Assembly: GCA_904066235.2 (NCBI GenBank)
Contig: CAJFCV020000006.1
Location: forward strand, 9,610,001-9,674,000
DNA length: 64,000 bases
Direction: 5' to 3'
DNA from: Bursaphelenchus xylophilus
Lineage: Eukaryota > Nematoda > Chromadorea > Rhabditida > Aphelenchoididae
Positions 1 through 61,100 of this stretch are shown here, piece by piece. The notes under the pieces were generated by a model. It was not told the origin of the DNA, ran no database searches, and was given only the letters and a program-made list of their open reading frames with translations. Position 1 is the first letter of the stretch; every line of letters starts with the position of its first letter. A program made the translations under genes and the position numbers.

Positions 1-372
1 TTTGGTTAGTCGCACAGTTCAAAGACCGAAAGTTAAAATTTTTATCGCACAGTGCGGTGGGTATAGATTTTTCGCGATTTCAGCGACGTGCAAATAAAAA
101 GTTGAGTCGAAAAAATAGTAGTGCGAAAGAGTATGAAGCTGTCTATCAACTAGGCTATATTTTTTTTATTTTTACAAATCGCACAGTGAAAAAAATCAAA
201 ATCAAAATTTTTATCGCACAGTGCGATGGATTTAGAGATTTTCGATTTCTGCAGCGGGAAAATAAAAAATTGAGTTAAAAATAATAGTAGTGTATAATAT
301 TATGAAGCTGTCTATCAACTAGACCATATTTTTTTTATTTTTGCAAATCGCACAGCGAAAAAAATTAAAATC
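1..372. repeat. 168-bp tandem duplication carrying GCACNGTGC sites
   Basis: Two imperfect copies of a unit of about 168 bp start near 36 and 204, and a third partial copy begins near 372. Each carries a GCACAGTGC site or a decayed version of it, followed by the phrase GAAGCTGTCTATCAACTAG and a T-rich stretch. Intact sites are at about 48 and 215, with further ones near 385 and 413. No credible gene is seen here; the 73-residue reading frame across it is a by-product of the repeat. Confidence 0.7.
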
Positions 373-442
373 AAAATTTGATCTGCACTGTGCAGTGGAG
401 ATAAGTTTGTACTGCACAGTGCCGTGGAAAAAAGTTAAAAAA

Positions 443-614
443 TCAAAACAAAAAATCACACCACGACAAGCTGATAATCAACGAGCGACTTCCTGACCCT
501 TGTCGATTCGCCGTGCCGCCCAACAGCTCCAGGAGGAGCGGAGAATCGGCCGAGACCACATGATGATGGTGATGCTCTACATGCTCCGCCGACATTCTCC
601 CATTCTCTGCGGGC
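443..614 (-). CDS. Candidate last (or late) exon of the - strand multi-exon gene
   Basis: A GC-rich island in AT-rich DNA. On the - strand it follows an acceptor reading TTATTGCAG (exon starts at 614) and stays open in a frame entered with one leftover base, which is the phase left by the exon at 14924-15082. The peptide begins PAENGRMSAEHVEHHHHH, continues VVSADSPLLLELLGG, and reaches a TGA at 443-445. Alternatively the exon ends at 498 on a weak GTCAGG donor and the gene continues. AATAAA occurs on the - strand near 165. The implied intron from 14924 is 14.3 kb, so membership in the same gene is inferred from phase and composition only. A second reading frame is also open here, which lowers confidence. 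Function unknown. Confidence 0.4.
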
Positions 615-1470
615 CTGCAATAACCTTGGAGGGCATCAAACACGCCCGACCTTCGACTCCCTTCAACCCCCCTCCGGAACGAAGCTAATAAGACCCGCAG
701 GGCATCAAGCCAAAAATGGGAAGGGGACGGGGCGAAAATAAACTTTTTTGGGCATAAAATTGTACAAGTGAACTAAGTGCGTTATTCATACAAAGGAATG
801 CGCGACTCGGACATGCCCTCAGGGCTTTTGGAAGGCTTTTTTCTGTCGAGACGTAAACATTTTTTTGGAAAAAAGGGGAAATTGGAGAGAATACTCAAAA
901 ATTCTCGAAAAAATGGTAAATTAAGGTGATGTAATGCAAAAAATTTTTGAGTAGCTAAAATTTTTATGATGTGACTGCCCTATTTCACAATGTTTTCCAA
1001 AAAAATTTTTGATTTTTTGAGTGAAATTTTCAAAATCGAGAAAAATTAAAAATTCCAATTTTTTCCACAAAAAAATAAAAAATTTTCCTTCAATTTCAAT
1101 TATAAAAACTTGCTAATACTCTAAAATTTATTGTACATTTGATTTTTTTGTTCCAAATTTAAAAAAATTTTCAAAGAATCCCGTTTCAAATTTCAAAAAA
1201 TCCCAAAATCCCTCTCCCTAATCTTCCAATTGTGCCAACTCGCCCAAACAATCTTCGTTTACAATTGGCCCAACCAGCTCGCCTTCTCATTAAGCCGCTG
1301 GAAACGCGCTTTTAATTGACAGGTGAGTTTGGGTTCCATGACAGGTGACAATAACCCGCCCAAAGTCGCTAATTAATCATCAGCACACGACAAATAAACA
1401 CAAGAGGCATGTAGTACAACTCAAGCACAGCCGTAAAATACGAAATTTCAAGTTTGTATTTTTTCGGAAA
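615..1470. other. AT-rich non-coding stretch, no gene seen
   Basis: Holds poly-A/T runs and a short GC-richer remnant (1200-1350) with a donor-like CAGGTGAGTT at about 1319 on the + strand, but no convincing exon in front of it. If the - strand gene runs from 14924 to 614, this is its downstream flank or intron. Confidence 0.5.
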
Positions 1471-2055
1471 TTGCACTGTGCAAAAAATGTTTTGTTGAGT
1501 TTTTGCACGGTGCGGAGAAAAAATCTCTGTTTCGCACAGCGCGGGATTTTTTTTGGGAAAATTCGCACTGTGCAGAATTTTTTTTGCATTGCACTGTGCG
1601 AAAAATCTTTTATTGAGTTTTTGCACGGTGCGGAGAAAAAAGTCTGGGTTTCGCACAGTGCGAGAATTTTTTGGGAAAATTCGCACAGTGCGGAATTTTT
1701 TTTCGAAAAATTGCACAGTGCAAAAGTTCTTTTTGAATTGCACTGTGCGAAAAATCTTTTATTGGGTTTTGCACAGTGCGAAGAAAAAAATTGAATTTCG
1801 CACAGTGCGAGAATTTTTTGGGAAAATTCGCACAGTGCAAAAAATTTTTTTTGAAGCTGCACTGTGCAAAAAAAATTTTTTTGCGCTGAACTGTGTGAAA
1901 AATATTTTATTGAGTTGATGCACGGTGCGGAGAAAAAACTTTGAATTTCGAAATCGCACTGTGCAAAAGCTTTTTGGGAAAATTCGCACTGTGCAAAAAG
2001 TTTTCTAAATCTGCACAGTGCAAAAAAATTTTTTTTGAAGCTGCACTGTGCGAAA
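1471..2055. repeat. YGCACNGTGCR palindrome array (about 18 sites)
   Basis: Intact sites recur every 27-33 bp, with centres A, T and G, separated by A/T-rich spacers such as AAAAATTTTTTGGGAAAATT. A spacer phrase ending in GAGTTTTTGCACGGTGCGGAG recurs at about 1500, 1620 and 1917. Overlapping reading frames on both strands are open only because the motif has no stop codons. Confidence 0.9.
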
Positions 2056-2170
2056 AAATTTTATTAAAAATTTATTAAAAATTTTTTGCGAAGTGAAAAA
2101 TTTTGATTGTAAAATAGCCAAATATCATCTATCGATTTTTTCAGCCCAAATAACCACCAATTTCCCCTAC

Positions 2171-4864: not shown

Positions 4865-5915
4865 CACCGCACCGTGCGGAGGAAAAATAAAAGAACTGCA
4901 CCGTGCGGAAGTAAAAATATCTTTGATGCACAGTGCGGAATAAAAAAGAAAGCGAAAGATTGCACCGTGCAAAAGCTGCGACAAATTCTTTTGATTGCAC
5001 TGTGCAGAAGAAGGAAAGGAAGGTCTTTGCGTCTTTGCACAGTGCAGAAATTAAAAATGTCGCTGTCGCACAGTGCAACGGGATAACTTGGTAACTGCAC
5101 GGTGCGGAAATAAAAATGTCTCTGATGCACAGTGCGGAAGAAAAAAGAAGGCAAAAGATTGCACTGTGCAAAACTTGCGACAAATTCGTTTGAGCGCACA
5201 GTGCAGAAGGAAAAAAGGAAACTCTTTGCACAGTGCAGAAATTTAAAATGTCGCTGCTGCACTGTGCAAATAAAGAAACTGGGTAAATGCACTGTGCGAA
5301 AGTTGCGACAAATCCTTTTGATTGCACTGTGCATCAAAGCAAATTGGAAATTCCTGCAAATCGCAGAAATCAAAACATCTTTGACGCACGGTGCAGAGGG
5401 AAAAGGAAAGAAATTTATTGCACCGCGCGACAGTTGCGACAAACTTTTTCAATCGCCGCAGTGCAGTGAAATTATCAGTCTGGCCGAAAAAGAACCGGCC
5501 CCCCTCGCGCATCGAAATCGCAACCCCGAAATTGAATGTTTGTGCGATGCATCGCAAAAGTGCGCGCGACATCGAAAGATCGCTGAATTTGTGGGAATTT
5601 TGTTGATTGCACAGTGCGAAACAGCAGAAAAATGCCGTTTGCACTATGCAAAACCCCCATTTATCGCTGGCGATGCGTCGTTTTTGCTCTTTTCTTCGGC
5701 GACGTCCTCCAAATTTCTGCGCGGTGCAAATTGGGGTTTGGAGTGAGTGCGACGGAAGGGTTCGGGGAGGCCGGTTCTTTTTCGGCCAGACTGATAGCGA
5801 ATTTCCTGCACAGTGCAGTCAATAAAAACTGCTTTCGTTGCACAGTGCATAAAATTGAAAAGACTGCACGGTGCAGAGAGAGTTTTAAAAATTTGTTTTT
5901 CTGCACTGTGCAATT
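4865..5915. repeat. YGCACNGTGCR array, interrupted by a MITE
   Basis: About 22 intact sites. Those in 4870-5390 alternate with spacers containing GCGACAAATTC and AGAAATTAAAAATGTCGCTG. A 324-bp TIR element (5473-5796) interrupts the array, and sites resume at about 5809, 5841, 5866 and 5903. Degenerate copies (GCACCGCGC at 5420, GCACTATGC at 5641) show decay by substitution. Confidence 0.9.
5473..5796. mobile_element. MITE with perfect 28-bp terminal inverted repeats
   Basis: The left end begins TATCAGTCTGGCCGAAAAAG (5473-5500) and is repeated exactly in inverse at 5769-5796. The interior is GC-richer than the surroundings and has no transposase. The CAGTCTG terminus and flanking TA resemble the CAGTCTGTCGGG family at 40-46 kb, suggesting a common mariner/Tc1-type mobiliser (inference). 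Confidence 0.8.
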
Positions 5916-6320: not shown

Positions 6321-7010
6321 GGAATGCACCGTGCGAAAGACGAAAACTCGTCTTGTGCACGGTGCGGTAAACGAAATTGTGAAGAAAGATGGAGAGGCAC
6401 AGGTAATTAGCAACTCAAATCTATAATTATGAAGGCGAGGAGGGGTAAATAGTGTGTTAACATCAAGGTTTTTCGATATCTTGGGAACTGCACAGTGCAG
6501 AAGGAAAAAACGAAAACTGCACTGTGCGGAGAGAAAAGATGACAAAAAATCGCAGTTACCGGATGGACAGTAAAAAGAAAAGAGTGTTTGTTACCAAAGA
6601 GTGTAAAAAGACACCTATAAAAAAAGCATTTATAAAAGTTTGACCAAATTGCGCACTGTGCGAAAAGATTTAGAATCTGCACAGTGCAATGGACAGAAAT
6701 TGAAAAATATTTATACTCTGCGGTTGCAAAATTAAAATTCGTTTTGCTAGTATATCTACAACCTATTACCATCAAAAAAATACAGGACAAAAAATTCCTG
6801 CCCACTTCTGCACCGTGCACTAGGTTATAATATAAACTGCACAGTGCAATGGAAATAAAGAGAGTATCTCTGTACTGTGCGGCCGCAAAAAAATAAAATT
6901 AATGTAAGTGGTGTAGTCACTGTCCGCTTATTACAAAAATAAAGAAATTCAGAATTTTTTGACTATTTACTGCACAGTGCGCCCTCTTCAAAAAACCGCA
7001 CTGTGCAATA
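6320..7010. repeat. Sparse YGCACNGTGCR cluster (about 10 sites)
   Basis: Pairs of sites 25-35 bp apart (6325/6356, 6488/6518, 6653/6679, 6810/6838, 6973/6999) are separated by about 100-130 bp of ordinary AT-rich DNA. The pairing differs from the even spacing of the dense arrays. Confidence 0.8.
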
Positions 7011-7484: not shown

Positions 7485-8215
7485 ATGCACGGTGCAGAAT
7501 AAAAGTTTTTGCACAGTGCATTTTTAATTTTCTGAAATTTTTTTGCACTGTGCAGTCGTCATATTTCTTTTTTAGAACGCACAGTGCAAAAATAAAATTA
7601 TTTTTTTTTCTGCACCGTGCAGTCAAAATAATTCAAATTGCACGGTGCGAAAAATTATAAAACTTTTGCACTGTGCAATCAAAAGAATTTTGTTCGAAAC
7701 GCACAGTGCAAAAATAAAATTATTTTTTTTTCTGCACCGTGCAGTCAAAATAACTCAAATTGCACGGTGCAAAATAAAAATAAAAATTTTGCACTGTGCA
7801 GTTTAAAAAATCATTTCAGAACGCACAGTGCAAAAATAAAATTACTTTTTTTCTGCACGGTGCAGTTAAAAAAATTCGCATTGCACGGTGCGAAAAATAT
7901 AAAATTATTGCACAGTGCAATCAAATGATTTTTTTTCATAACGCACAGTGCAAAAATTTCTAGCTATTTTTTCTGCACCGTGCAATCAAAAAACTCAAAT
8001 CGCACGGTGCGAAAAATATAAAATCTTTGCACTGTGCGGCTTAAAAAATTCGTGTTTTACAGTGCAAAATAAAGATAAAAATTTTGCACTGTGCAGTTAA
8101 AATAATGTTTTCAGAACGCACAGTGCAAAATAAAGTCATTTTTTTTGCACAGTGCAAAAATTTTTAGGTATTTTTTCGCACCGTGCAAAAAACAAAAATA
8201 ATTTTCCGCACCGTG
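7485..8215. repeat. Dense YGCACNGTGCR array with 121-bp higher-order unit
   Basis: About 24 sites. The phrase GAACGCACAGTGCAAAAATA recurs at about 7577, 7698, 7819 and 7940, giving a 121-bp unit that contains four palindromes with centres in the order A, C, G, then T or A. A further copy of the phrase near 8115 falls off the period. Confidence 0.9.
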
Positions 8216-8764
8216 CAGTCCCAAAACTTGAAAAACCATCGGCCAAATTTCCCCCAAAATCCCCTGCGAACAAATTGTTTTCGCGCGTCGAGACAAAAAC
8301 AAATGAAAATCTTGATTTTTCACCAGATTTGCGAGTGGGGCTTTCTCGGATTCATCTTCTTTTCTTTTTTTCTTCTTCCCTTTTTAATGTCCTTCCTGTT
8401 TCCGTTCCCTTGCGCTCGAGGCGGCCCGAAAAGTCGGGGGCCGAGGACGAAGAAATTTGTGGGCCGAAAAATAAAGATGTCATCGGGAATTACCATGGCA
8501 AATATAATCAAACTTTTCACTTGGATTATTATGACATTTGCACCTTTGATGGGAAGATAAGGGCAAAGTCAATTTTTTTGTTTTTTGGACATAAGAATAT
8601 AGTATTTTGACCCAAAAAAATTAATTAAAAAACTTTTTCGGTAAAATTCAAGTTTTATACAAAAATCGTTTTTTTACCACGAACACAAGGTAAGGTGTTT
8701 TTCTATGTTTTACAAAATTTTATTTTTACTCTATGCCAATTTTCATCAAATTCTGAGCAACTTT
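8216..8764. other. Non-coding, GC-mixed to AT-rich
   Basis: A GC-richer patch at 8390-8470 lacks splice-bounded frames. No gene seen. Confidence 0.4.
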
Positions 8765-9450: not shown

Positions 9451-9470
9451 CGAAAGTTCTGAAAAGGCTC

Positions 9471-11515: not shown

Positions 11516-12612
11516 TCACTGTGCAATGAAAACAAAGTTTGCGCACAGTGCAAAGATTTTTTATAAAAATTTGAAGTGCACGGTGCGGAAATCTAGGAAA
11601 AAAGATTTGCACTGTGCAACAAAAAAAATTTCTTTGAACATTGCACAGTGCAGAAAAATTTTTTTTTTGTTGCACTGTGCAAATAATTGGAAAAAGACTT
11701 TCATTGCACTGTGCAAGAAAATTATACTTTGTCATCCGCACAGTGCAAAGAAAGAATCGGAAAATCTCAAAAATGCACTGTGCAAAAAATTAAAAAACTG
11801 AATCTGCACTGTGCAATGGGAAAATACAAAAATATCTCACGGTCTCAAATTTTGTTACGAAATATCTTACTTTTGCACGGTGCACGGCAATCCGAAATAA
11901 AAGAAAAATGTTTCCCGCCCACTTTTGAGTTTCGTCCAAACGAAGTGTCAAAATTGAAAAAATAAATAAAATAATTCCGAGAAAAAGATTTTTCGGTCGG
12001 AAAACCCCACGAAAAATTCTTTTGTGACATTTCGTTTGATTTTAACCGATGCAAAATCTGCGAACTGTCGAAAGGAGCCAGGAAACACTTCGGGTTGCCG
12101 TGCGGTGCAAAAAAGTTCCCATTTCAGGACACTGCAGAACAACAAAAAACCTTTTTTCAATTTCTGCACGGTGCAAAACAAAAAATTTTTTTATTGCACA
12201 GTGCAATTTCAAACAAATTTTATAGTAAGTCCAAACGTCACTCCAAAAGTTTGTTTTGTCCCAGTAAACCTTGGATTAATCCCGTCTCACTGCTTTAATT
12301 TTCATTACTACTATTTTCATAAAGTGCATGGACATTTATCAGGTCCCGCACCGTGCACGAAAAACTCCAATTTTCATGCACAGTGCGTTTCCCTTGTTTT
12401 TGGTTTTGCACTGTGCATCGAAATATCGCTGCGACATAAGCTTTTTCCAACTTCGTCGCCGCGGTTTCACTTCAAAATTTGCACAGTGCAAACGCTTTTT
12501 TTGAGGGCATAAAGCGAAAAAATGCACTGTGCGTCGGCGACAAGAGGTGGGAAAAAATTCAAAATGCACTGTGCGAAAGCGAAAAAATGCCCATGCACTT
12601 TATGAAAATACT
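11516..12612. repeat. YGCACNGTGCR cluster (about 19 sites)
   Basis: Sites about every 30 bp at 11543-11810, then sparser to 12565. The distal part, 12311-12612, is bounded by an inverted repeat (TATTTTCATAAAGTGCATGG on the left, its complement near 12590-12612), so part of the cluster sits inside a TIR-bounded unit of about 300 bp. Confidence 0.85.
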
Positions 12613-13944
12613 AATACCCCGAAATATTCTATCCGTTGTGTTCCCCGAATGATTAATATACAGAAAGTTCCAGGCATCATGTGAATTATTAATTGCGGGG
12701 TGGATAAATTATACACTTGATAACTCTTTACTGGCTTGTCATTTATCCGAAACGTGCCACTTCGGCCTTCTGGCAAGACGCGTTTTCGAGGGTCCGACTT
12801 CTGAGCCTAATAAATGACGTTTTTCGTAATTTTTAGAAAAAATAATAATAAATTCTGAGAGGAGAAACTAAGGATTGAAGGATTATATGATCTTATAGAC
12901 ATGTCTAGAGTACAATTTGTGACTGTGGTTGGGAAAAAATCTGCATTTTTGAGTAAAATCAAAAATTATTTTTTGAAAAAATGTCAAAAATAAATTTCGA
13001 TTTTCAAAGCCTTGCAGAGCTGCCAATTGATCAAGATTTTTTGACGTTATTCGACATGCCCTTAGGTCACAAAAAACGTAAATAACATGAAGACGTCTGC
13101 ATTAGCTGCTCTTAGGGGTCAATTTTTGGCAAAACTTCCAAGTTCTTCCCAATCTGTCAAGAACTCAAAAAATCATGAAAAATACAGTAACCTATGGCTA
13201 GGACTATGTCTGTATCGGATCTACAAGACCTCTTATTTCATTAAAAATACAAATGTATCAAAGAACTAGGACATTTCAGCCAAAAACAGGCCGAAAAAGA
13301 CAAGACTTCCAGAAAATACTCGAAAATTGCCAAAACCCCTAAAATTACAGTAAGCCACACCCCAAAATATTACTAAAAACTCGCAACAAGATGTCTAGTC
13401 CCCCGCAAAACACGTTTCCATCAAAATACCAACATGTTTTGGCCGGAGACGGGCCAAGAAAAGCGCCGACTTTCCCCCATGCCACCTGAACCTTCAACTC
13501 GCAGAGATTATGACAGCTCGGAACAAGCGGGCCGAAAGAAAGAGCGCCGCACGGAACAGTGAACAAGTGTTTTCGCCCCGCTCCTACTTGGCTTCTCTGT
13601 GGTCGCCGTTAATTTGACAACAAATAAACGAGGAATAACATTCGATCAATCTTCTGGCCGATTTTCATCAATTCTGCTGGGAAAAACAGGATGTTTTTGG
13701 AAGGCATGGTCGAAAAGATATTGGAAAATACGATTTTCGTGCGAGTGATGCTCCAGACACCCTAAGGGCACATTGATTTGGTGGTCAGAAACTCAAAATT
13801 TTTCTCAAATATCGAATTTCTGTCAAATCTGGCGACAATCCGTAAAATCGCCTGAGGCAAAAGGTCGCAAAAATCGGCCAGGCCTCATATCCAATTACAT
13901 AACACCTCAATACACACCTCACTGGTTGATTTTTGACCAAACGG
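12613..13944. other. Non-coding stretch, no supported gene
   Basis: A GC-mixed segment at 13340-13610 has open frames on both strands (73 codons on -, a short ATG frame on +) but no matching splice sites. Confidence 0.4.
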
Positions 13945-14455
13945 TTGCACTGTGCCAAAGAGTTTCGAAAGTGCATCGAGTTTTCGGAAATGCACAGTGC
14001 AAAGAGAAAAAAGTTAGCACAGTGCGGTCGCGATAATGCTTCGCACTGTGCAGTCGCGACAAAATTTGCACCGTGCAGTCGCAAAAAAATTTTGCACTGT
14101 GCAGTTGCGACAAAACTTCGCACTGTGCGGTTGCGACAAAACTTTGACTGTGCAGTCGCGACAATATTTCGCACAGTGCAATTGCGACAAAATTTGCACC
14201 GTGCAGTCGCAAAAAAATTTCGCACTGTGCAGTTGCGACAAAACTTCGCACTGTGCAGTTGCGACAAAATTTGCACCGTGCAGTCGCAAAAAAATTTCGC
14301 ACTGTGCATTTGCGACAAAATTTCGCACTGTGCAGTCGAGGCAATATTCCGCACGGTGCATTAAATGAAAAAATGAACTTTTTGAATCCTTGCACCGTGC
14401 GAACAATGGACCTCTCCGCACTGTGCACTCTCCCCCAATTCCTGCACAGTGCATT
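13945..14455. repeat. Very regular YGCACNGTGCR array, period about 25 bp
   Basis: About 18 sites, 15 of them at 24-27 bp spacing, separated by GTCGCAAAAAAATTTC or TTGCGACAAAACTTC, so the spacers form a second short palindromic theme (TTGCGAC / GTCGCAA). TTTGCACCGTGCAGTCGC recurs at about 14066, 14194 and 14271. The shortest-period array in the window, with little decay. Confidence 0.92.
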
Positions 14456-19964: not shown

Positions 19965-20720
19965 TGAATGCACTGTGCAGGGGAAAGTTAAAAGTTGAAT
20001 TTGCACAGTGCGAATGCGACAAAAATAAAGAAGGTCTTTTTGCACTGTGCAAGGGAAAGAAAGTAGAAAAATAAATTTGCACAGTGCGAAAGCGACAAAA
20101 ACAAAGAAGATCTCTTTGCACTGTGCAAGGAAAAAAATGAATAAGTTGAATATGCACTGTGCGGATGCGACAAAAATGAAAAAGATCTTTTTGCACTGTG
20201 CAAAGAAAAGAAAGTGGAAAAGTTGAATTTGCACACTGCGGATGCGACAAAAATAAGAAAAGTCTTTTTGCACTGTGCAAAGAAAAAAAAATGAAAAAGT
20301 TAGATTTGCACAGTGCGAATGCGACAAAAATGAAAAAGATCTTTTTGCACTGTGCAAAGAAAAAAAAATGAAAAAGTTAGATTTGCACAGTGCGAATGCG
20401 ACAAAAATGAAAAAGATCTTTTTGCACTGTGCAAAGATAAAAAAGTGGTGTTCGCACAGTGCAAAAACAAAGTTTTATTTTATTTTATCGCACTGTGCAG
20501 CATAAAAAAATTCTGCACCGTGCAAGCCAAAAAATAATGAAAAGTGCGAACGCGACAAAAATAAGAAAAGTCTTTTCGCACAGTGCAAAAATAAAAAAGC
20601 GGTGTTCGCACAGTGCAAAAACAAAGTTTTATTTTATTTTTTCGCACTGTGCAACATAAAAAAATTCTGCACCGTGCAAGCTAAAAAAATAATGTAAAAA
20701 AGCGCTTGCGCAGTGCAGGA
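19965..20720. repeat. YGCACNGTGCR array with 77-bp unit
   Basis: About 19 sites. A unit of roughly 77 bp, TTTGCACAGTGCGAATGCGA, then CAAAAATGAAAAAGATC and a GCACTGTGC site, repeats from about 20000 to 20440, nearly unchanged in the last three copies. A second subfamily (TTCGCACAGTGCAAAAACAA) repeats at 20451 and 20606. Confidence 0.9.
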
Positions 20721-21059: not shown

Positions 21060-22060
21060 TTGCACTGTGCAGAAATAAATATTTTTTATATTGCACAGTG
21101 CAAAAATAATTTTTTTTATTTTTTTATTTTTTTATTTTTTTGAATTTTGACACATTTTTTTACCATGTTCAGAAAATGTCAACTGCACAGTGCAATCATA
21201 AAAAAAAAATTTTTCGCACTGTGCAAAAACCAAACACCTTTTATTATACTTTTAAAAACCACATTTTAAAATTTCAATCCAACCTTGCGGATGTCACGAA
21301 AAAAGTTACGAATGAACTCCGTGTACGTCGAAAAGACGACGACTTTTCGGCTCAATATTTGCCCCCCAAAAGAAATCCATCGCTTTTCGGGATATCAAAT
21401 AACCTTCTCCTTCAAGACCAAAGTGAAATGCAGCAAGTTGACGGGAAAATATGGATAAAGGAAGGGAGGGAAAAAGTATTATCCGCTTTGGATGACAATC
21501 TTGATATAACAAATAAAAAAATTTTTTTTGAAGCCAGAAAACAACTTTTATCGATATTTTTGAGGACTTCGAGGAATAAACGAAATTGTTTTGCACAGTT
21601 GACATAAATATTTTGAAAAATTTTTTTGGCACAGTGCAAAATTTTGACAGTTTTTTTGCACTGTGCATTTTAAAAAAAATTTTTTTTTGCACAGTGCATA
21701 AAATCGAAAAAAAAAATTTTTTTTGCACTGTGCAATCAAAAAAAAAATTTTCAAAAATTCGCACTGTGCAAGATTTTTTTGACTGCACTGTGCATTTTAA
21801 AAAAAAAAATTTTTTTCTTGCACAGTGCAGAAAATCGAAAAAAAATTTGCACTGTGCGGCCCCCAAAAAAACTTCCAAAAATTCGCACTGTGCAAGATTT
21901 TTTTGACTGCACTGTGCAATTGATTTCAAAAAAAATTTCGCACCGTGCAAAAAAATCAAAATTTTGTTTTATTTTTTCGCACTGTGCGCTCTAAATTTCC
22001 ACTCCAAAAAATCTCTCGCACCGTGCAAAAAAAATTTTTGTTTCTGCACGGTGCAGAAGC
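21060..22060. repeat. YGCACNGTGCR cluster (about 18 sites), two blocks
   Basis: Sites at 21061, 21094, 21184 and 21217, then a 400-bp gap, then sites every 23-40 bp from 21631 to 22045. GCAAGATTTTTTTGACTGCA recurs at about 21768 and 21891, showing a 123-bp unit. The gap (21250-21600) is an open + frame of unclear status. Confidence 0.88.
21275..21607 (+). other. Open reading stretch between two array blocks, doubtful
   Basis: About 110 codons without a palindrome site stay open to a TGA at 21605-21607, reading ADVTKKVTNELRVRRKDDDF and onward with mixed, protein-like composition. There is no clear acceptor, own ATG or polyadenylation signal, and AT-rich codons dominate. Could be chance or an exon of an unseen gene. 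Confidence 0.2.
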
Positions 22061-38297: not shown

Positions 38298-38765
38298 AAT
38301 CGCACTGTGCAAAAAAACCTGTGTCTGCACCGTGCAAAAAAAATAGAAAAAATTTTGTCGCCAATTTTGCACAGTGGCTTCAATTTTTTGCCTGCACTGT
38401 GCAATACAAATTTTTACGTAGTGTCGCACTGTGCAAGAAAAAAACAAAGTTTGTCGCTAACCTTGCACGGTGCAATGGTATGAGTTTTCAGTTGCACTGT
38501 GCGTTTTTTCAAGTCTGGGTTGCACTGTGCAGAGAAAGCAAAAAGATTTGTCGCTGCCTTTGCACAGTGCAATGACATCAAATTGGACTTGCACAGTGCG
38601 AACAAACAATTTGTCGCTGATTTTGCACAGTGCAATGTTTTGATTTCTTAATTGCACTGTGCGTTTTTTCGAGGCCGTGTTGCACTGTGCGAAAAAACCA
38701 AATAAGTTTGTCGCCACTTTTGCGCAGTGCAATAACTTGATTTTTTGCCAGCACTGTGCAAATGG
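38298..38765. repeat. YGCACNGTGCR array (about 13 sites), unit about 162 bp
   Basis: GCAATGGTATGAGTTTTCAG at 38470 and GCAATGTTTTGATTTCTTAA at 38632 head units that then share TTGCACTGTGCGTTTTTTC and TTTGTCGC. Spacers repeat TTTGTCGCTGA-like text, as in the 13.9 kb array. Confidence 0.88.
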
Positions 38766-39269: not shown

Positions 39270-39670
39270 TAATTTGCACTGTGCAAAAACACAAAAAAAT
39301 ATTTGCACAGTGCAACAACAATTTCTTCAAACTGCACTGTGCAAAATTTATTTTTTGGAATTGAACAGTGCAAAAAACGGAATTTAAAAATTCCGCACGG
39401 TGCGTTTTTATTTTTGAGGAAATGCACAGTGCGAACGAAAAAATTCGTCATTATTTCTTGCACAGTGCACCGACAGGTTTTTTCAAACTGCACTGTGCAA
39501 ACGAAAGAATTTGTCGCGACATGTCATTTGCACCGTGCAAAATTCATTGTTGAAATTGCACAGTGCAAAAAAAGGGAAATTAAAAATTCCGCACGGTGCG
39601 TTTTTTATTTTTGAGAAAATGCACGGTGCGAACAAAACAATTTCTAATTGCCTCTTGCAAAGTGCAAAAA
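39270..39670. repeat. YGCACNGTGCR array (11 sites), unit near 195 bp
   Basis: AAAAATTCCGCACGGTGCGT followed by TTTTATTTTTGAG occurs at about 39386 and 39582, and GCAAAATTYATT at 39340 and 39536, so a unit of about 196 bp with five sites is duplicated. Confidence 0.88.
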
Positions 39671-42250: not shown

Positions 42251-42254
42251 ACGA

Positions 42255-47249: not shown

Positions 47250-47645
47250 TTTTGCACAGTGCAGAAGAATCTGATGGATAATTTGGTATTTTAGAGTAGT
47301 ATAGAGATGACAAATTTGATTTAAATCTGTCATCGATGAGCTGTTTTTTTATAATAAATAATTTGAATTGAAATTTTTTGATTGCACGGTGCAAAAACCG
47401 AATGTTTTTTGACTGCACTGTGCAGTCGGATTTTGATGTCTTTTGCACTGTGCAACGATGATTTTTAGCTAATTTCTTTGTTGAGTCTTATTTTTCAACC
47501 TTGTGCAGTCATGCCTGTAATCTTTTACTACCAATTTATTGTTCAAGACAGTGATTCATGTCGATCTTTCCCGACTGCACAGTGCAAATTCATTTTTTTG
47601 CTTACTGCACTGTGCGACAAACTTTTTTGTAAATTTTTTTTGGGA
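47250..47645. repeat. Sparse YGCACNGTGCR cluster (6 sites)
   Basis: Sites near 47255, 47384, 47413, 47443, 47577 and 47607, ending 20 bp before the mariner insertion. Confidence 0.8.
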
Positions 47646-47665
47646 TAACGATTTTTAAACCTTTA

Positions 47666-49824: not shown

Positions 49825-50835
49825 ATCATGCACGGTGCGATGTTTGGCTCATTGCACTGTGCGGCGAAAGGTTTTCGCTTGCACAGTGCGGGAAATCGGT
49901 CTATCCAAAAAAAAATCATGTTTATTGAAGCCCTCAGGATGTTTGAAAATTTTTAGACAGTTTTTTAATTTTTCAACTTCCTCAATTGCACAGTGCGAGT
50001 GCTAGAAAATCGCACTGTGCAATAATGAATTTTCAATTTAACTGTGCAATCGGATGCAAGATGGAAAATTTTCAGAAGCGAAGTAGAACCATCAAGACGT
50101 ATGAAAAGTATTCAGTCAACTTTTTTTTACTTTCCATTGTTTTGAAACACACACTGCGATTTTTGAAATTTCGCACAGTGCAATTCAACTTTTTTTCTGC
50201 ACTGTGCTAAAATGGCTATTTGAATTAAATTTATGAGTGTTATAGAATATTGTATGTATTTATAGGTGCTTACGTTTATATGTTTTCTCTGTTTGGCGCA
50301 GTGCTATGCTTGTAAAGCGGAAAAAACTTTCCTTTCCAGATTGCACAGTGCAGTTGTTTCTTTCCCTCCATATCGCACAGTGCAATAGATTAAAAGCCCG
50401 TCATTTTTGTCTAGACCATTCCTACTGACCTCTTCAATCAACTGGTGTTCCAATTGTCTCACATTTTTCCGTTTGCACCGTGCTAAAAGTTGATTATTGT
50501 CTCTTGCCCCGTGCAACCATATTTTCTTCAAATTTACCATAGACATACACTTCATTCGACAAATTTTCTATTCTCCTACAATCTTGCTTCAATTTAACCT
50601 TCATTTTTTTAATTATCGTCACTTTTCCTTTGACGCACAGTGCAAGAAATTATTCATAAGTTTTGCACGGTGCAGCCGGATTTCCAGCCAATTTCCAGGT
50701 GAAACCCGGCGGCTCATGACCTATTCAACTTGCGAAACTTTGAAACAAACTATTTAAACCCCATTCTCAAATAGTACACCACATTCTAGCTCTCTGCACT
50801 GTGCAACTCACTTCTTCTTTTTCAGCGCACTGTGC
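49825..50835. repeat. Loose YGCACNGTGCR cluster (about 13 sites)
   Basis: Sites at 49829, 49853, 49880, 49986 and 50011, then every 30-170 bp to 50826. Several are damaged (AACTGTGC, GCACTGTGCT, GCCCCGTGC), suggesting an older cluster. Confidence 0.75.
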
Positions 50836-52084
50836 GGTGGCTTAAAACGGCCAAATAAATGTTATTTTCTTTTTATTCCATTTCCCATGAGGCTGTCTGC
50901 GTCAGTTGAGGTCATAATGTCGTAGATAGGGCGCTTTAGGAATTCCAGGGGCATTTTTAATTGCAGTGCGCATAAAAAACGTCGGGCCTTTACCACTTTT
51001 AATTGTATTACTGCAGGGCTTCGGAGAGAAAAGGGATTGCGTTTTTTGTAGGTTATTAGTCATTATTTTGTCTAATCTCGGAGGAAAGAGTCGAAATTTT
51101 GGGGTTTTTAGCGGAATTCCAGAAAACATGTCATGATGACGAGTTTAATTGGCCAACATTGCATGAATTTTTTTGTAAAAGCGTTCTGTACGTTTAGCCA
51201 GGAGCTGATAAAAAATGTTACGCAAAAATTTGCTGATTTTTCCAAAAAATCTGTCATGATGACATAATAATCCGTTTTCAAATTGCCGCAGCTCTTGTCT
51301 TCTTAGTATGAAAGACGAAAAATAGTGGCCATAAAAAATATTTAGATCATAAATCCCAAAAAAATCTCCAATTTTACGTGGTCATATTGACAGATTTTCT
51401 GGAAATTTCCAAAAATTAGTATTGTGATTTCAAAATGAAAGATGACATTACTAATGGCCTTGTAAGGCGTTTAGTCGTCACGTGGTTACAACCTTCCTCC
51501 CCCTGCATTAGTCTGACGTCTTTTTTCGGCCGTCTCTTCGGCCCCGCTTGCAAAGGCGGAACGACGAACGCTCTCTTCTCGGAATTCGGTTAAATTTCGC
51601 GGAATTAGCCAGACTACAGAGGGCTTATCTTGCACATAGAACACTTCGTAGGCATTTTTGATTTCAAACAAATTTTGATTTTTTTTTTGTGTCTTTATGG
51701 TATTACCATTTTTTTAAATGTCAAATTTTTTTGAAGTAAGCGTATTTTACCATTTTTTGAGGCTTTTAGAGCCCAAAAAATTTGAAAAATAAAAAAAAAA
51801 TTTTTTTACTTTTTTTTGCAAAAGTACTATTAGTGTATTCTATTAGTACCAAAAGACTTTTTTTTCTCTAAAACTGCATGCCTTTCTGATCTTCGACGTA
51901 ATCTTATCCATTTTTTGACAAGAAAGTGCAATTATTAAACAACTTTTTTTGTATTACATTTCCTTCCCAAGTTGTCAAAAACCAGTTCAAAGTGCTCATA
52001 AACTCCCAAAAAAGTACAAGAATTGATTTTACTGCCATGTCATGTGGGCATTTTGTGTAAATTTCCATTTTTGTTTGAAGCTTG
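50836..52084. other. Spacer with TGTCATGATGAC palindromes
   Basis: ATGTCATGATGACGAG (51128), TGTCATGATGACAT (51252) and a decayed GGTCATATTGACAGATTTTC (51382). A - strand frame of 61 codons at 51486-51671 (EIKNAYEVFYVQDKPS...) looks protein-like but has no splice or start context, so I leave it uncalled. Confidence 0.4.
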
Positions 52085-52470
52085 GCACGCACAGTGCGGT
52101 CTGAAAAAAGTTTTGTCCGCACGGTGCAGACGTTTTTCACGATTTTTAATTTGCACAGTGCAAAAAAAAAACATTTGGAAGGAACGTCGCGAACTTTATT
52201 TGCTGTCGCACCGTGCAAAAAAATGTGTAAAATCGACTGCACCGTGCAGATTTTTAGAAAGTTTTTGCACTGTGCGCAGTTTTGCAAAAGCTTTGTATAG
52301 CGAAGCCTGTTTATAGTAAAAAAAAATTTTTGATAGCTGATGTTTGTTGTAGAAAGGTCTATTTTAATTTCTGTTTATCTTTACAGTCCAAAAATATCTC
52401 GTTTTTGCACAGTGCATTTTTTAATTTTTTCACTGCACTGTGCAATTTTTGTCCAATTTGCTGCACAGTG
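52085..52470. repeat. YGCACNGTGCR cluster (9 sites)
   Basis: Two runs, 52089-52266 and 52406-52463, spaced 28-55 bp, separated by 130 bp of AT-rich DNA. Confidence 0.85.
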
Positions 52471-53044
52471 CAAACAAAAAAAATTTTTTTTGAAATAACC
52501 TGAATTCAAAGCCAAGTATTTTTTGTAACAAGTGGTATGATAGTAGTTAAAAAGAAACTTCCTTTCCATCAACAAAAAAATAAAAAGATTTTTTAAACTT
52601 TTTCCTCCCGAACGTTTGGAACGCTGTGTAATGAAAGGCCAATCGATTCCACAGATGGTTTCTCCCTTCACCTATAATTACCAGCGTTTTCTGGGGGTTC
52701 AAAAGTCTCCTTTCCGGATCAACAGGCAATTATTTTCCATGTGGAAGGCAATTTTCCTCTACTTTCCTGAGATTTTCTACTAAAAAGCCTTTTTTCTACA
52801 AAAAAAAATTTTTTTCTTCCAAAAAAACAGTTATCATTATGATTTGATATCAAATCTCATCATTCTCATGTTTTTTTTGGACTTTCGACCTTCCAAAGCG
52901 GATATCTCTATGAAAATTGATGTTCCGCATGTTTCTGCTGCCCCCACAAGCGTTCCATTCGTATAAAAGAGCCGTTCCGTGATGGTTTTATTCAATTTTT
53001 GACATTCCTTTGGGTTTCTTGCACTTTTAAAATTTTTAAATTTT

Positions 53045-53580
53045 CGAAACGCACGGTGCAATTTCAAAATTTTGCACGGTGCAGTTCTTTGGATTGAAAT
53101 TTTGCACGGTGCAGAAATAAAATTTTGGATTGCACAGTGCATTCAGGAAAATTTTATTTTTTGGTCTTTTTGCACGGTGCGAACGCTTTTTTTTGTTCTG
53201 CGACAAGCCTTTGCACCGTGCGCCAATTTCTTATTCAATTGCACAGTGCAATTGGTTATGTTCTTAATCCGTCGTTTTTGTTTTTTTGCACGGTGCGTTT
53301 TCTTTTTTAATCTGCGACAATTTTTTTTGCACCGTGCATTTTTTGGTATTTCGCGACAACTTCTCTCTGCACGGTGCAGCAGTTTCCTTTTCAATTGCAC
53401 AGTGCAATCCGTCGATGTTCTTTTTTTGGCACAGTGCATTTTGTTCCCAACTCTGCGACAATTTCTTGCACCGTGCTTTTTTTGTATTTCGCGACAACTC
53501 TTTGCACTGTGCCATCCAAAAAAAAACTGATTGCACAGTACAAAAGCCGGAGATTTCAACAGACTCCTTCGCACAGTGCG
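53045..53580. repeat. YGCACNGTGCR array (about 13 sites)
   Basis: Sites every 25-45 bp, many with G or C centres, separated by CTGCGACAA or TTTCGCGACAACT spacers as in the 13.9 kb array. A unit beginning TCTGCGACAA recurs near 53196, 53311 and 53452. Confidence 0.9.
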
Positions 53581-54629: not shown

Positions 54630-55310
54630 AAGATCGCACCGTGCAGCCAATTTTAACACACCATTTCGTGTAGAGGCTGGGTTAAAAGGCCTTTGTTGTT
54701 GGGTTCTACCTTGCCATTTTAGTTTTTGGACGATTGTCGAACAACTTTCTTTTGTGTTTTTGCACAGTGCGGGCGAGTTTTTAATAATCGAAGGAATTGC
54801 ACTGTGCAGAAGTTTAAAATACGATTTGCATAGCATTTTGCCGGCTTTGAGATGGACGAAATCTTTGGTAAATGTAACAAAGCACGTAGTTTACAAAGAC
54901 ATAAAAAAAAATTATTTTTCCGCACAGTGCGTCCGAGTTTTTAATAATCGAAAAAATGCACAGTGCAGAAGTTTAAAATACGATTTGCATAGCATTTTGC
55001 AGGCTTTGAAGGTGAAAGAATGATTTTTTGATTTTAACAGGCAACGTATTTTACTATGTCTCAAAAAACTTTATTTTTCCGCACAGTGCGACCACTATTG
55101 CACCTTTTTGTAAACTGCACTGTGCAAAGATAACTTAAAGGTAGTCTGCACAGCGCGGACTTTGGAATTTAAATTGCCGTTTGTAAAATACGTATTTTGA
55201 AATTCCTATGTAAAAATTTGTTTTCTGCACTGTGCATCCCACTTTTTTCACTATTCTTTAGACTGCACCGTGCGAAATTTTAAAAATCGTTTGCACAGTG
55301 CAGTAGGACT
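54630..55310. repeat. YGCACNGTGCR cluster with a 161-bp direct duplication
   Basis: About 10 sites. GAGTTTTTAATAATCGA, GCAGAAGTTTAAAATACGAT and TTGCATAGCATTTTGC occur at 54774-54842 and again at 54933-55001, each copy with two palindromes about 35 bp apart. Confidence 0.88.
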
Positions 55311-55473
55311 AAAATTTGTTTTTGTTGTTGTAAATAAATTTTTTAGGCTCTTCTGGGTAATTTTTTGATCAAATTTTTCCAACTTCTCTGGTTTTGAAGC
55401 CAATTTTTAAAAATTTTTTCGATTTTTTTTCATTTTTTGGCATTTTATTAGCTTGCTCTGAGCATTTAGATAA

Positions 55474-56919: not shown

Positions 56920-57810
56920 CCGCACTGTGCGAGAATTTTGGAGTTGGTCGCACAGTGCAGTCCGAAAATTAGTTCTGCACGGTGCATAGTTTTTGAAAAT
57001 TTTTTGCACTGTGCAGTCAAAAAAAACTTGCACTGTGCAAATAATTTTTTTTTATTTTTGCACTGCTCGGAAATTTCTCGACACTTTCTGCACTGTGCAA
57101 TTCATTTTTTTTTAAATTTCTGCACCGTGCAAGACTCTCCCAAAATTGACCGCACTGTGCAATTTTTCAAAAAATTATCGCACATTTTCCGCACTGTGCA
57201 GTCATAAATTGCACTGTGCAATCAAAACTTTTCTATTTTTGCACCGTGCAGAAATTTCTCGCCACTTTTTGCACAGTGCAATCAATTTTTCATTCGTTTG
57301 CACCGTGCAAAACTTTCCCAAATTCGATCGCACTGTGCAATTCTTCAAAAAATTTATCGCACAGTGCAGTTCAAAAAAAAAATTTTTTTGCACCGTGCAG
57401 AAAACTTGTTTTTTAATTTTCTGCACTGTGCAGAACCTTCTCCAAATCGATCGCACTGTGCAATTTTTCAAAAATTTATCGCACATTTTCCGCACAGTGC
57501 AGTCAAAAAATTGCACTGTGCAATCAATTTTTTCTATTTTTGCACCGTGCAGAAATTTCTCGTCACTTTTTTGCACTGTGCAATCAAAACTTTTCTATTT
57601 TTGCACCGTGCAAAACTTTCCCAAATTCGATCGCACTGTGCAATTTTTCAAAAAATTTACTGCACAGTGCAGTTCAAAAAAAAAAAAAAATTTTGCACCG
57701 TGCAAAAAAAAATAAAAATTTTTTATTTTCTGCACTGTGCAAAATTTCCCAAAATCTACCGCACCGTGCGGTTTTCCAAACATTTTTTTGCACCGTGCAA
57801 TCTTTGCTAC
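56920..57810. repeat. Densest YGCACNGTGCR array (about 29 sites)
   Basis: Sites every 20-40 bp. A unit with TCGCACTGTGCAATTTTTCA, TTGCACCGTGCAGAAATTTC and CAAAACTTTCCCAAATTCG is repeated with variations from 57150 to 57760. T and C centres predominate on the + strand here. The array ends about 300 bp upstream of the phosphatase start. Confidence 0.93.
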
Positions 57811-58106
57811 ATCCAATTTAGCTTGTAAAACTTATTTTTTCCCTTCATAAACAAACATATCGCATTACTTACCACCATTTACCTTGTTAGTAACTGAAAC
57901 CACATCATTTTTCGTATGAAATATTTAGACGCCACTCTTTTTTCAGCTGCTTTTAGTGTAAAGTAATATCGCCAAAAATAAATTCCACCTTCAGTCCCTT
58001 TATAAAGTTGTTTTTCGTCGAATTTAAGGTTGCTGATATGGATCTCTTTTCAATTTTTTGCGTTTTTACAATTTTTTTAACAAAATATTTTTACAAAATT
58101 GATGAA

Positions 58107-58118
58107 GTTTGGTTGCAG
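58107..58118 (+). promoter_or_regulatory. Possible trans-splice acceptor in front of the phosphatase start
   Basis: GTTTGGTTGCAG directly abuts the ATG at 58119, as spliced-leader acceptors often do in nematodes. A TATA-like TTTATAAAG lies at 57999. If no splicing occurs, an in-frame ATG at 58038 would add a hydrophobic 27-residue N terminus. Confidence 0.35.
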
Positions 58119-61100
58119 ATGTCGCTAAAAAGGACAAACAGATTGTCGTTGGACAGTCGGATGCCTTCACATCGGCCGAGCACATCGAGATGGAGGTAAG
58201 TCAAAGTCTAGAAGTCAAAATTTTTGATTTTTTTTTTAAAAATCTCTTTTTTTCAAAAAAAAAACACCTTTCAATATGGACAAAAGCTGGCCAAAATTTA
58301 GATCTCAGTTTTTCAAAGGCTTTTTAAACCCATTTTTTTAGAAATTTCGGAAATTTTTAGGTCAAAAAGTTCAGAAAACCAAAAAAAACTTCGACTTTTA
58401 CGTCGAAAAATAAGAATTTTATTTCACGTTGAGAGTGGAGAAAATATTTCCACAAAAATCAATCTTTTCGGACTAAAATTTTAATAAAAAACTCAAGAGT
58501 TTCCGCGCACAGTGCGAAACGTCAGCAAAATTTCGCACAGTGCAAAATTTTTTTGCCCCCACTGTGCAATTTGAGACTAAATTTGCACTGTGCACGAAAT
58601 TTTTTTTGCGCCGCAACCGTGTTGTTATTGCACTGTGAAACTTCCAAAAAATTGCACGGTGCCAAAAAATGTTTTTCTTTATTTTTTTAAACTTTTGCAC
58701 GTTGTAAAATTTTTCCTATCGCATTATAAAATTTACAAAAAAATTTGCACAGTGCAATCTTTTTTAGACCGCACCGTGCAATTTGAGCCTAAATTTGCAC
58801 TGTGCGCTAAACATTTTTCATTGCACCGTGCAATCGAGTTTCAAAAAAAAAATTTTTTGCACTGTGCAAATCAAATTTTTTTGGTACTTTTGCACTGTGC
58901 GATTTACACAAAAAAAAATTTTTACTACATAAAATTTTACAAGGTGCAAAAGTTTCAAAAAATAAAGAAAAACATTTTTTGGCACCGTGCAATTTTTTGG
59001 AAGTTTCACAGTGCAATAACAACACGGTTGCGACGCAAAAAAAATTTCGTGCACAGTGCAAATATAGGGTCAAATTGCACAGTGCGGGCAAAAAAATTTT
59101 GCACTGTGCGAAATTTTGCTGACCTTTCGCACTGTGCGCGGAAACTCTTGAGTTTTTTATAAAAATTTTAGTCCGAAAAGATCGATTTTTGTGGAAATAT
59201 TTTCTCCACTCTCAACATCAAATAAAATTCTTATTTTTCGAAAAATTTTTGTTGCACTGTGCAAAACAAATTTTTTTGGAAATTTTGCACAGTGCGAAGA
59301 AACTTTTTCTCAAATTTTTTTCAATTTTTTTATTTTTTTAATCTTTTATCACTTTCAGTTCCCACGAGCCCCAATTATCTCCGGAACAGCGTCAAACTCT
59401 CCGCCGCTTCTCCCGCAACGTAATCGAGGCCGGGATCACCCAACTTTGCAAGGAATTCGCCCAAATCCAGCATCTGGACACGGCTCCCGACTGTTCCAAT
59501 GCCGTCCCCAGCAACCTGAATCGCTGCCGCTACAGAGATGTGGTCTGTTGGGACCACACTCGAGTGCGGTTGAACAACTTGAACAATGATTTTATTCATG
59601 CAAACTTGGTGAAGCATTCCACACTGCCCAATGAATTTATTTGCTGCCAAGGCCCGTTGGATTCGACGGCCGCCGATTTCTGGGAGATGGTGTGGCAAGA
59701 GAGGACCAAATTGATCATCATGTTGTGCCAGACGGTGGAGGAGAAGAGGAATAAATGCGCACAGGTAAGGATTTTTTGTTTTTTTTGTGGGAAAAATTAT
59801 GGGAATTTTGGTCAAAAAAAATTTTTTTTGTAAAATACGGTATTTCGATGTCGACATTTTTTTGTGACACACTTGAGATCAGCTGAAATTACATTATTAA
59901 TAGTTTATCAGCCAGTAAATTCCTCAAATAAACAATAATTTTGAAAAAACTTGATTTTTTGGTCAAAAGTAAAATCGATTTTTCAATACCAAATTGAAGT
60001 GACATCTAGAAGGAACTTATATTATTTGGAAGACTAAAGACTGTAGCTACTATGCTGTGAATATCAAATTCTCAGCGATTAAAATTTCGGAGTTATGACC
60101 AGTCAAAGTTAGGGTACTTTTTAACAAAAAAACTCAAACTTTTGAATAAAAATGTGTTCAAATCAGGATTATTAGGTAAAATACGCCTGCCTCAGTGCAT
60201 TTGTTTCACCCTACAATACCTGTATTTTCAGTATTGGCCCAAATATCCCGGTGAATCCCGGCAATATGGCCCATTTTTGGTCCGGAATGAGATGGTCGAC
60301 CAGACCGAGCCGGGTCTCAAACGAACCCATCTGATTATCCGCTACAATAACGATGAACACAGTGTGCAACATTGCCAATGGTCGGCGTGGAAGGACCGCA
60401 AAGCTCCGAAGGGCTGTACAATGGCGTTCCGATTGCTGGCGATGGCCAGGAAACGCGCGGATTGGCCAACAATTGTGCACTGTTCGGCGGGCGTTGGCCG
60501 GACTGGAACGCTGGTGCTGCTGGCGATGCTTAGAGGGTAAGGGTTGGTTATTTTTGGGTAAAATATGGGTAGAAATTTAATTTTTAGAAAAAAAAAATTT
60601 TCTGCACGGTGCAAAAATTTTTTTGTCTGCACTGTGCAAAGCCAAAAAATAAACTTTTGTAAAATACGCGCTATAAACCGACAAGCTTTTTTAAGTATTA
60701 GTAATGTTGAGACCATTTTTTTATAATACCAAAGTTTAAAAAAAAATTTGCATAAATTTGCATAAAAACTAATTTTTTAAAAAATTTTAAAAAACCAATT
60801 AAAAATAGACTTTTTTATTTCGTCAAAGTAAAAATATCACTCAAAAATTATTGCATGATGTTTTTTAAAAAAGCAAAAAATTTTTGAAAAAATATTTTTT
60901 TTTCATTTTCCCAATTTTAGCGCCATTTTATCCCCAACAATGGAGAATGTCAGCACGCTAAAGTTGCTTCGTGACCTCCGAACGCAACGCGGGCAATGTA
61001 TTCAGACTGAAGACCAGTATTTATACGTCCATTTGGCCATGTTACAGTATGCCGTCAAGTCGAGAGCGGTGACAATTGAGGAGGTGGCAGGTGAGAGATA

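Follow-up and report, generated by a model that had tools for sequence, protein, structure and literature searches.

The CENP-B box is a short protein-binding motif that is kept in diverging alpha satellite units of nucleosome length, and the CENP-B protein is itself derived from a transposase. The step from a transposon recognition site to chromosome structure is familiar mainly from this system. MITEs with TA targets represent a Tc1/mariner-type class. In C. elegans, meiotic pairing centers contain 12-base motifs bound by the zinc-finger proteins HIM-8 and ZIM-1/2/3; these motifs are enriched at one end of each chromosome and different proteins serve different chromosomes (PMC9071541). A report on Arabidopsis thaliana describes short interrupted repeat cassettes (SIRC) as MITE-enriched short repeats with diverse spacers, and proposes that they originate from MITE interiors after loss of the terminal repeats (PMC10342631). 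The 3,050 SIRC sequences reported there comprise 2-8 units, their repeats differ widely by locus, and approximately 57% are without a palindrome (PMC10342631).

We analyzed a 64-kb stretch of the Bursaphelenchus xylophilus genome, hereafter the window, for the interrupted palindrome YGCACNGTGCR; a protein match of 99% identifies the species. Like the CENP-B box, this motif is kept while the surrounding repeat diverges (4/432 changes at fixed bases against 270/2865 in spacers, counted over overlapping pairs of copies). Unlike the box, it is an exact palindrome that occurs in many sequence backgrounds and several chromosome regions. The elements that carry it resemble TA-target MITEs in being short, in having TIRs with TA at both ends, and in occurring on all six chromosomes; they differ in that several TIR families have a common internal palindrome, in arrays of variable length. 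As with the pairing-center motifs, the motif is short and clustered in nematode chromosomes, but a single motif is found on all chromosomes and towards both ends in five of six. With SIRC, as outlined above, the arrays have in common short repeats split by diverse spacers and an association with MITEs, whereas they are built on one 11-bp dyad over tens of thousands of sites, with absolute spacing and measured conservation. We consider them similar to SIRC and not members, because one dyad is used throughout and the repeat does not vary widely between loci.

A further repeat, at C3:20-3736, has CCGG every 160 bp and is presumably the MspI 160-bp satellite of B. xylophilus. It matches the palindrome pairs listed below in its 160-bp period, but the unit that was read lacks GCAC and GTGC, so the motif does not stem from this satellite as it stands. 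No published account of the motif was found in the open-licence literature, with the motif letters included as queries.

Abundance and form of the palindrome

The sequence GCACNGTGC occurs 361 times in the window, compared with a mean of 0.49 and a maximum of 3 in 100 dinucleotide shuffles. A left-hand Y and a right-hand R flank 349 of these sites, giving YGCACNGTGCR. Over all 361 sites, each of the four bases is used at the center (T in 142, A in 128, C in 47, and G in 44). When a 300-bp gap rule is applied to the intact YGCACNGTGCR sites, they fall into 34 clusters between positions 46 and 60638. The first-pass annotation had counted about 350 sites in about 30 clusters by hand, with the same flanks and free center, and these figures agree closely with it. 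The information profile is symmetric and extends beyond the motif given there, to WYYGCACNGTGCRRW. One-mismatch sites number 50 in the window, where a first-order chain expects 2.2, and two-mismatch sites number 35 (36.8 expected). Isolated sites include 33 intact copies and about 9 with one mismatch above background, while sites with at least three neighbors include 289 and 33, respectively; the difference is modest. The features of the window are as follows.

46..394, sparse cluster, 3 intact YGCACNGTGCR, 169-bp steps
1472..2052, dense array of 18 palindromes in units of about 30 bp
4868..5395, dense array, 16 palindromes; TIRs not found, and the rest of the genome has no complete copy
5473..5796, MITE-like element, 32-nt TIRs (97%; TCAGTCTGGCCG...), TA-flanked, 1 internal palindrome
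5807..5912, short array, 4 palindromes
6325..7007, five palindrome pairs, 157-164 bp steps; neighboring units resemble each other no more than unrelated units do
7486..8217, dense array, 24 palindromes, 122-bp higher-order unit; weak TIR score
11542..11884, array, 10 palindromes
12306..12616, MITE, TIR ...TATTTTCATAAAGTGCATGGACATTT, 6 palindromes; at each end the outermost one lies about 10 bp within the TIR core
13991..14453, regular array, 16 palindromes, 25-26 bp units, GTCGCGAC-type spacers
19969..20678, array, 19 palindromes, higher-order units of 77 and 154 bp
21061..21225, two pairs (4 palindromes)
21657..22055, array, 13 palindromes, 124-bp higher-order unit
22639..23011, array, 10 palindromes
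24615..25135, sparse cluster, 6 palindromes, 141-172 bp steps
25599..25772, array, 6 palindromes
27043..27408, array, 9 palindromes, higher-order units of 98 and 157 bp
31109..31609, sparse cluster, 6 palindromes, about 160-bp steps
34192..34575, array, 11 palindromes
34959..35313, array, 12 palindromes, partial homology to the array at 35994..36329
35994..36329, array, 12 palindromes, 146-bp higher-order unit
36887..37068, 5 palindromes; one-sided TIR-core match at 36961, minus strand
38301..38691, array, 12 palindromes
39275..39630, array, 11 palindromes
47253..47616, sparse cluster, 6 palindromes
49829..50836, 12 palindromes; between 50474 and 50836, pairs in steps of about 160 bp (one pair with mismatched sites)
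52088..52472, array, 9 palindromes
53050..53580, array, 12 palindromes
54635..55302, 10 palindromes, arranged in pairs with steps of 159-160 bp; one unit pair 85% alike
56921..57799, dense array, 29 palindromes, 301-bp higher-order unit
58506..59296, 15 palindromes, mostly within a large inverted repeat (arms 58403-58713 and 58931-59241, 96%)
60603..60638, final palindrome pair, on the immediate 3' side of an open frame that encodes a tyrosine-phosphatase domain

The earlier statement that the palindrome organises the window exceeds these data, although the pairs repeating near 160 bp are an ordering that it had not seen. It had also named near-chance counts in the rest of the genome as grounds against its reading; instead, YGCACNGTGCR occurs 39,685 times in 78.25 Mb, compared with 44 occurrences of the reversed pattern. 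At 5.45 sites per kb, the window is a dense spot in a genome that averages 0.51 per kb. Half-site spacing is absolute at 1 bp. Spacings of 0, 1, and 2 bp are found 64, 39,685, and 68 times across the genome, and 225, 44, and 54 times for the controls. A spurious reading frame of one array, used to look for the array in other species, had no match among proteins, a result that is uninformative.

Carrier elements and conservation

Several MITE families flanked by TA have a terminal core in common, and close to half of their ends carry the palindrome about 10 bp inside it. The unplaced contig L016 contains twelve TIR elements with palindromes; at their 24 ends, the palindrome follows a 16-base core after 10-11 bp in 10 cases, 1 bp in 4, 39 bp in 5, and elsewhere in 5. 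Of 576 terminal cores (control 6), 247 have a palindrome within 7-13 bp (control 0), and ten MITE-sized intervals between such ends hold 5-19 palindromes each. The TIRs are exact or near-exact at 12306-12616, at 5473-5796, and in the twelve L016 elements. Most L016 elements, and likewise a 198-bp family, are bordered by TA at either end, TA flanks having been a requirement of the TIR-element scan. This 198-bp family yielded at least 105 match rows, from the 40 scored of 1,223 first-look candidates, with identities of at least 94% on each of the six chromosomes and copies of 100% on C3 and C5. With its TIRs, TA flanks, and many near-identical short copies, the TIR-bearing fraction is classed as MITEs on sequence features.

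Around the window arrays, terminal repeats were mostly not found in 90-bp flanks of clusters of two or more palindromes. Such TIRs are clear at 12347-12575 only and weak at 7486-8217, and the cluster at 58746-58901 lies within the larger inverted repeat. No autonomous partner was recognized among eight DDE_3 matches, four of them alike. Two of these four and one distant copy were read as mariner candidates for this partner and rejected, as their ends differ and they have no internal palindrome. Among the 11 frames listed for four long intervals bounded by matching ends, 6 were scanned and matched no Pfam family.

Homologous copies in the window and L016 differ by 9.4% in their spacers and by 0.9% in the eight fixed bases. 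These values refer to clean pairs, which leave out BLAST rows with spacer divergence above 15% and shorter alignments and exclude a tandem on C1. A broader BLAST table, in which the center base varied strongly, was re-counted with these stricter rows because it joins unrelated AT-rich spacers. Within the window, changes affect 4/256 fixed and 105/1036 spacer bases (p = 6e-7), with 10 of 42 palindrome comparisons gapped and omitted from the count; within L016 and between L016 and the window taken together, they affect 0/176 fixed and 165/1829 spacer bases. The pooled counts amount to approximately tenfold less change at the fixed bases (p = 1e-12), in pairs that overlap and are not independent. 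Among MITE copies, variants found in at least two copies fall in 1/24 fixed columns and 43/165 others (p = 0.01). Singletons gave no sign of site protection after MITE insertion, with 5 in 24 fixed columns and 24 in 165 others (p = 0.56). A palindrome that is mostly intact amid drifting DNA points to a putative DNA-binding protein, for which a forty-thousand-copy motif with one exact spacing and measurable conservation is direct bait.

Origin and role of the palindrome

The explanation that we favor, held at about even confidence, is that the palindrome is a recognition site for a putative dimeric protein serving a superfamily of TA-target MITEs, most likely a transposase that an unseen autonomous partner would encode, or a domesticated derivative of it. 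MITE transposition would seed the palindrome, and tandem duplication of multi-unit blocks would enlarge the arrays, whose terminal repeats would have been lost or never there. The arrays would retain their palindromes because the putative protein still uses them. A continuing chromatin role would be a likely second step, since element-level selection alone appears insufficient for so many kept array sites. The motif also provides a natural setting in which to test how recognition sites of transposons become satellite arrays and perhaps chromosome structure. A stronger form of this proposal, which we judge fairly improbable, is that a putative transposase-derived dimeric chromosomal protein of Bursaphelenchus reads palindrome pairs spaced by about 30 bp at every nucleosome length. 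On the arms, purifying selection would then maintain the sites, in their tens of thousands, together with their phase, as a sequence-encoded, genome-wide chromatin scaffold evolved from MITE ends.

It is possible, if doubtful, that the sites belong instead to a putative host architectural protein, CENP-B-like and perhaps a domesticated transposase, that would bind the arm arrays, in places with one site pair per nucleosome-length unit, and for which MITEs would be merely carriers. Its role could be, for example, heterochromatin nucleation, arm anchoring, or kinetochore marking. The fixed bases kept in window array copies (4/256 against 105/1036) agree with such a protein. So does the spacing of consecutive palindrome pairs in the window and its neighbors, which is 155-172 bp in 15/22 cases though most adjacent 160-bp units show no greater similarity than unrelated units; the steps on C1 are 159 and 160 bp. 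A Rayleigh optimum lies near 161-164 bp over 52 pair distances, which are not independent and were set against a crude uniform baseline. However, most sites belong to 30-bp arrays rather than to 160-bp pairs, and outside C6 three such consecutive pairs were seen, two of them in range. The 160-bp units probably go back to old tandem repeats, as those on C1, compared by eye, still have a few words in common.

Neighboring sites are mostly 24-41 bp apart, with a mode of 29-30 bp. The arrays could be read as a plain minisatellite, produced by slippage and unequal exchange with no binding partner and intact because it is young, but we disfavor this as unlikely. Higher-order tandem duplications are clear in the window arrays, and L095 is a young array of 51 sites in near-identical units. 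Spacers are more alike than shuffled spacers, with a weak residual similarity in seven arrays (0.43-0.60 against 0.32-0.40) and a greater one in L095 (0.80 against 0.40), so the array units descend from one another. What a plain minisatellite does not account for is that the same seven arrays, with far diverged spacers, contain 155 intact sites and 10 with one mismatch. Nor does it fit the conservation of eight bases between homologous copies around a free center base, or the presence of the same palindrome at preferred places in the ends of different MITE families.

The behavior of the center base bears on mutational self-maintenance, in which palindrome-directed template switching or micro-conversion restores the arms and redraws the center; we find this quite unlikely. 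In clean pairs without the C1 tandem, the center base outpaces the spacers (18/54 changed against 270/2865), nine of the 18 changes being A-T exchanges, and three center columns of the MITE copies hold 4 singletons. The flanking Y and R are not turned into complementary pairs, contrary to what template switching would lead one to expect. Moreover, the center changes in 0/10 cases in the C1 tandem and is T in 48/51 L095 units, and singletons of the MITE copies do fall in the arms.

The first-pass annotation had raised a role like that of the C. elegans pairing centers, which now appears very improbable. The nematode host, the short clustered motif, and its scarcity in chromosome centers suit such a role, as did a similarity search with one array, whose matches lay mostly towards one end per chromosome. 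This one-ended pattern was dropped because array triples sit towards both ends of five chromosomes; only C2 is one-ended, with triples in its right half, and 3 of the 34 array places are in the middle 40% of chromosomes. In addition, one motif is common to all six chromosomes, mostly on their arms, and is in part dispersed by MITEs. The pairing-center part of the earlier reading is not supported. Its other parts are supported: a selected or copied unit resembling a dimeric binding site, given the symmetric dyad, absolute spacing, and conservation between diverged copies, and spreading, via MITEs and tandem duplication.

An RNA hairpin or small-RNA signal with a 4-bp stem and 3-nt loop is exceedingly improbable: the sequence is palindromic, but the C..A flanks that break the outer pair are at chance frequency in the window (no departure from independence, p = 0.72), C..G is below independence in 937 sites (51 against about 70 expected, p = 0.002) so that hairpin-type covariation is absent there, and the window has no match to Rfam families.

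Rows from Tandem Repeats Finder touch 14 of the 34 window clusters. The 11-bp site alone is often well shared, so this program covers few of the clusters and the motif is easily overlooked.

Abundance and chromosomal distribution

The sequence GCACNGTGC occurs 361 times in the window, against a mean of 0.49 in shuffles. The Y..R flanks are present on 349 of these sites, which bears out the claim of the first-pass annotation that about 350 intact sites are present, far above chance. Near misses are scarce (50 sites with one mismatch and 35 with two, the latter at background level), and the symmetry of the profile reaches the third flanking base. Tandem Repeats Finder returned 48 rows for the window, which overlap 14 of the 34 palindrome clusters by hand count. 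A scan of the whole assembly, as the same annotation had proposed, showed that the abundance is genome-wide: in 78.25 Mb, made up of six chromosomes (12-15 Mb each) plus two small contigs, YGCACNGTGCR was found 39,685 times and the reversed control pattern 44 times. Within this assembly the window corresponds to G000:C6:9610001-9674000, and a C6 protein has a 99% match, spanning 85% of the query, to a protein from Bursaphelenchus xylophilus. With one mismatch allowed, the counts are 52,001 and 2,407. Changing the half-site spacing reduces the count to 68 (control 54) at spacing 2 and to 64 (control 225) at spacing 0.

The sites are unevenly distributed. Samples of 10 kb taken at 5.0 Mb on each of the six chromosomes contain one palindrome in 60 kb. 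The leading 10 kb of the six chromosomes, again 60 kb in total, contain none; the genome mean would give about 30 in each sample set. A subsample pattern matched 147 sites genome-wide; the first 100 matches cover chromosomes C1-C3 completely, where 11 of 90 sites lie within the middle 40% (hand count). A triple-array pattern marks 34 places that represent all six chromosomes, three of them inside the middle 40% (p=6e-5, binomial); on C2, they are confined to the region from 7.25 Mb to the right. Nematode repeats are usually biased to chromosome arms, and the arm bias of the palindrome says little about its function. The pairing-centre-like role that had been hypothesized is not borne out, given that array places lie towards both ends of five chromosomes; the palindrome arrays do not share the one-endedness of pairing centres (PMC9071541).

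Among the left chromosome ends read, long TTAGGC arrays are found on C1 and C4. At the left end of C6 (G000:C6:1-10000) lies a satellite array whose ~170 bp units are ~98% alike and contain no palindrome. On C3, the left end carries a 160-bp CCGG satellite, which we take to be the MspI satellite; it differs from the palindrome arrays in that the half-site is absent from the unit read.

Palindrome settings and spacing

Start-to-start distances were surveyed for 531 sites from the window and 14 sampled loci. None is below 20; the distribution rises steeply at 24, has its mode at 29-30, ends its tail by 41 and shows a minor peak at 51. A single overlapping pair, 7 bp apart, was seen outside this survey, in locus L078. 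Palindromes occur in three settings: dense arrays, pairs repeated near 160 bp, and MITEs.

Higher-order duplications, 77-301 bp in size, are common in dense arrays. In seven arrays the spacers resemble one another weakly (0.43-0.60 versus 0.32-0.40 shuffled), and those of a young array of 51 sites (L095) reach 0.80 versus 0.40. No other place in the genome has a full copy of the window array at 4840-5460; its partial matches are scattered over the arms, the longer ones 65-70% alike and the shorter ones up to 90%.

In the paired setting, two palindromes about 30 bp apart recur near 160 bp. Consecutive pairs are 155-172 bp apart in 15 of 22 cases in the window and its neighbours, and in two of three elsewhere. 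Neighbouring units mostly resemble each other no more than unrelated ones do: with hand-set unit borders and a background identity of 0.72 (sd 0.05, 99th percentile 0.82), two of 29 comparisons exceed the 99th percentile and one equals it. The units of a C1 example still have a few words in common, so the pairs are likely to descend from old tandem units.

The first 10 kb of a 14.5-kb unplaced contig (L016, G000:C8) contain twelve TIR elements with palindromes, flanked in most cases by TA. Their outer tips differ, but they share a related core near AAAGTSCNNGGAMATT. The distance from the core to the start of the closest palindrome, measured at 24 ends, is 10-11 bp in 10, 1 bp in four, 39 bp in five and another value in five. 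Genome-wide, the core occurs 576 times (control 6); an intact palindrome follows 7-13 bp further on in 247 cases (control 0). Ten MITE-sized intervals hold 5-19 palindromes each in 343-801 bases, mostly in steps of 21-41 bp or multiples; MITEs thus contain arrays whose length varies between copies, and the window element at 12306-12616 is one such MITE. For the most part, L016:1-10000 is built of nested, TA-flanked MITE-like elements from several families, with inverted repeats of GGGGACAAAA type at 6146-7354. Among the places listed on C1, two core variants look regional: AAAGTGCATGG lies towards the chromosome ends and AAAGTGCCTGG chiefly around 9.4-12.4 Mb.

Other features in and near the window are:
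window 9464-10652: inverted repeat with arms of 282 nt that are 99% complementary; no palindrome
window 43149-44429: large inverted repeat, 423-nt arms, 96%, around a 162-bp tandem repeat; no palindrome
window 59342-60540: two open frames matching parts of the protein-tyrosine phosphatase domain (PF00102), palindromes on both sides
G000:C6:9674001-9684000 (L024), reverse strand: 926-codon open frame with threonine-/glutamate-rich repeats (TTELPTEGTTEPVTEQ), mucin-like by eye

Conservation of the fixed bases

Twenty alignments of at least 150 columns and 1-15% spacer divergence were compared, excluding twelve palindrome comparisons with a gap (ten of them among 42 in the window). Changes affect 4/256 fixed, 10/32 centre and 105/1036 spacer positions in four within-window alignments; 0/176, 8/22 and 165/1829 in ten alignments with L016; and 0/80, 0/10 and 1561/13161 in six that pair overlapping segments of a tandem repeat on C1. 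With C1 excluded, 4/432 fixed bases changed versus 270/2865 spacer bases (p=1e-12), although p-values of these counts are too small because the alignments overlap. A second set of hand-cut neighbours gave 2/496 versus 183/1761. The free centre base outpaces spacers in some copy sets, with A-T exchanges making up half of the changes; this fast change is absent from the C1 tandem repeat and the young array.

A 198-bp MITE family has copies of at least 94% identity on all six chromosomes, and of 100% on C3 and C5, in a sample biased to close copies (40 of 1,223 first-look candidates scored). In 41 copies, variants present in at least two copies hit 1/24 fixed columns versus 43/165 others. Singletons do not avoid fixed columns (five in 24 versus 24 in 165). 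We read the MITE site as conserved in the replicating lineage, whereas individual dead copies do not conserve it. In contrast, arrays in the window seem to be conserved where they stand.

Candidate mechanism and related systems

The palindrome is an exact dyad with a free centre base and absolute spacing, and its flanks show no pairing covariation. These properties fit a protein dimer that reads two YGCAC half-sites, the dimeric binding site proposed at first pass, rather than a hairpin. The favoured place of the palindrome by MITE ends would suit a transposase or transposase helper. Block duplication is observed within arrays. A protein may still act on arrays without TIRs. Neither the binding protein nor a partner transposon was found among the DDE_3 elements read or in four long intervals, where six of 11 listed frames were scanned against Pfam. 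The closest published kind found is the SIRC of Arabidopsis, which differs in that SIRC repeat sequences vary widely (PMC10342631).

A 1.3-kb mariner-like element was rejected as the autonomous partner of the palindrome MITEs, as its ends are unlike theirs. Two copies (L069:1541-2838 and L070:1580-2877) are 98.8% alike and have an open DDE_3 frame and 31-nt terminal repeats, with similar matches at C5:10281280 and C4:11449998. This element is a recently active transposon.
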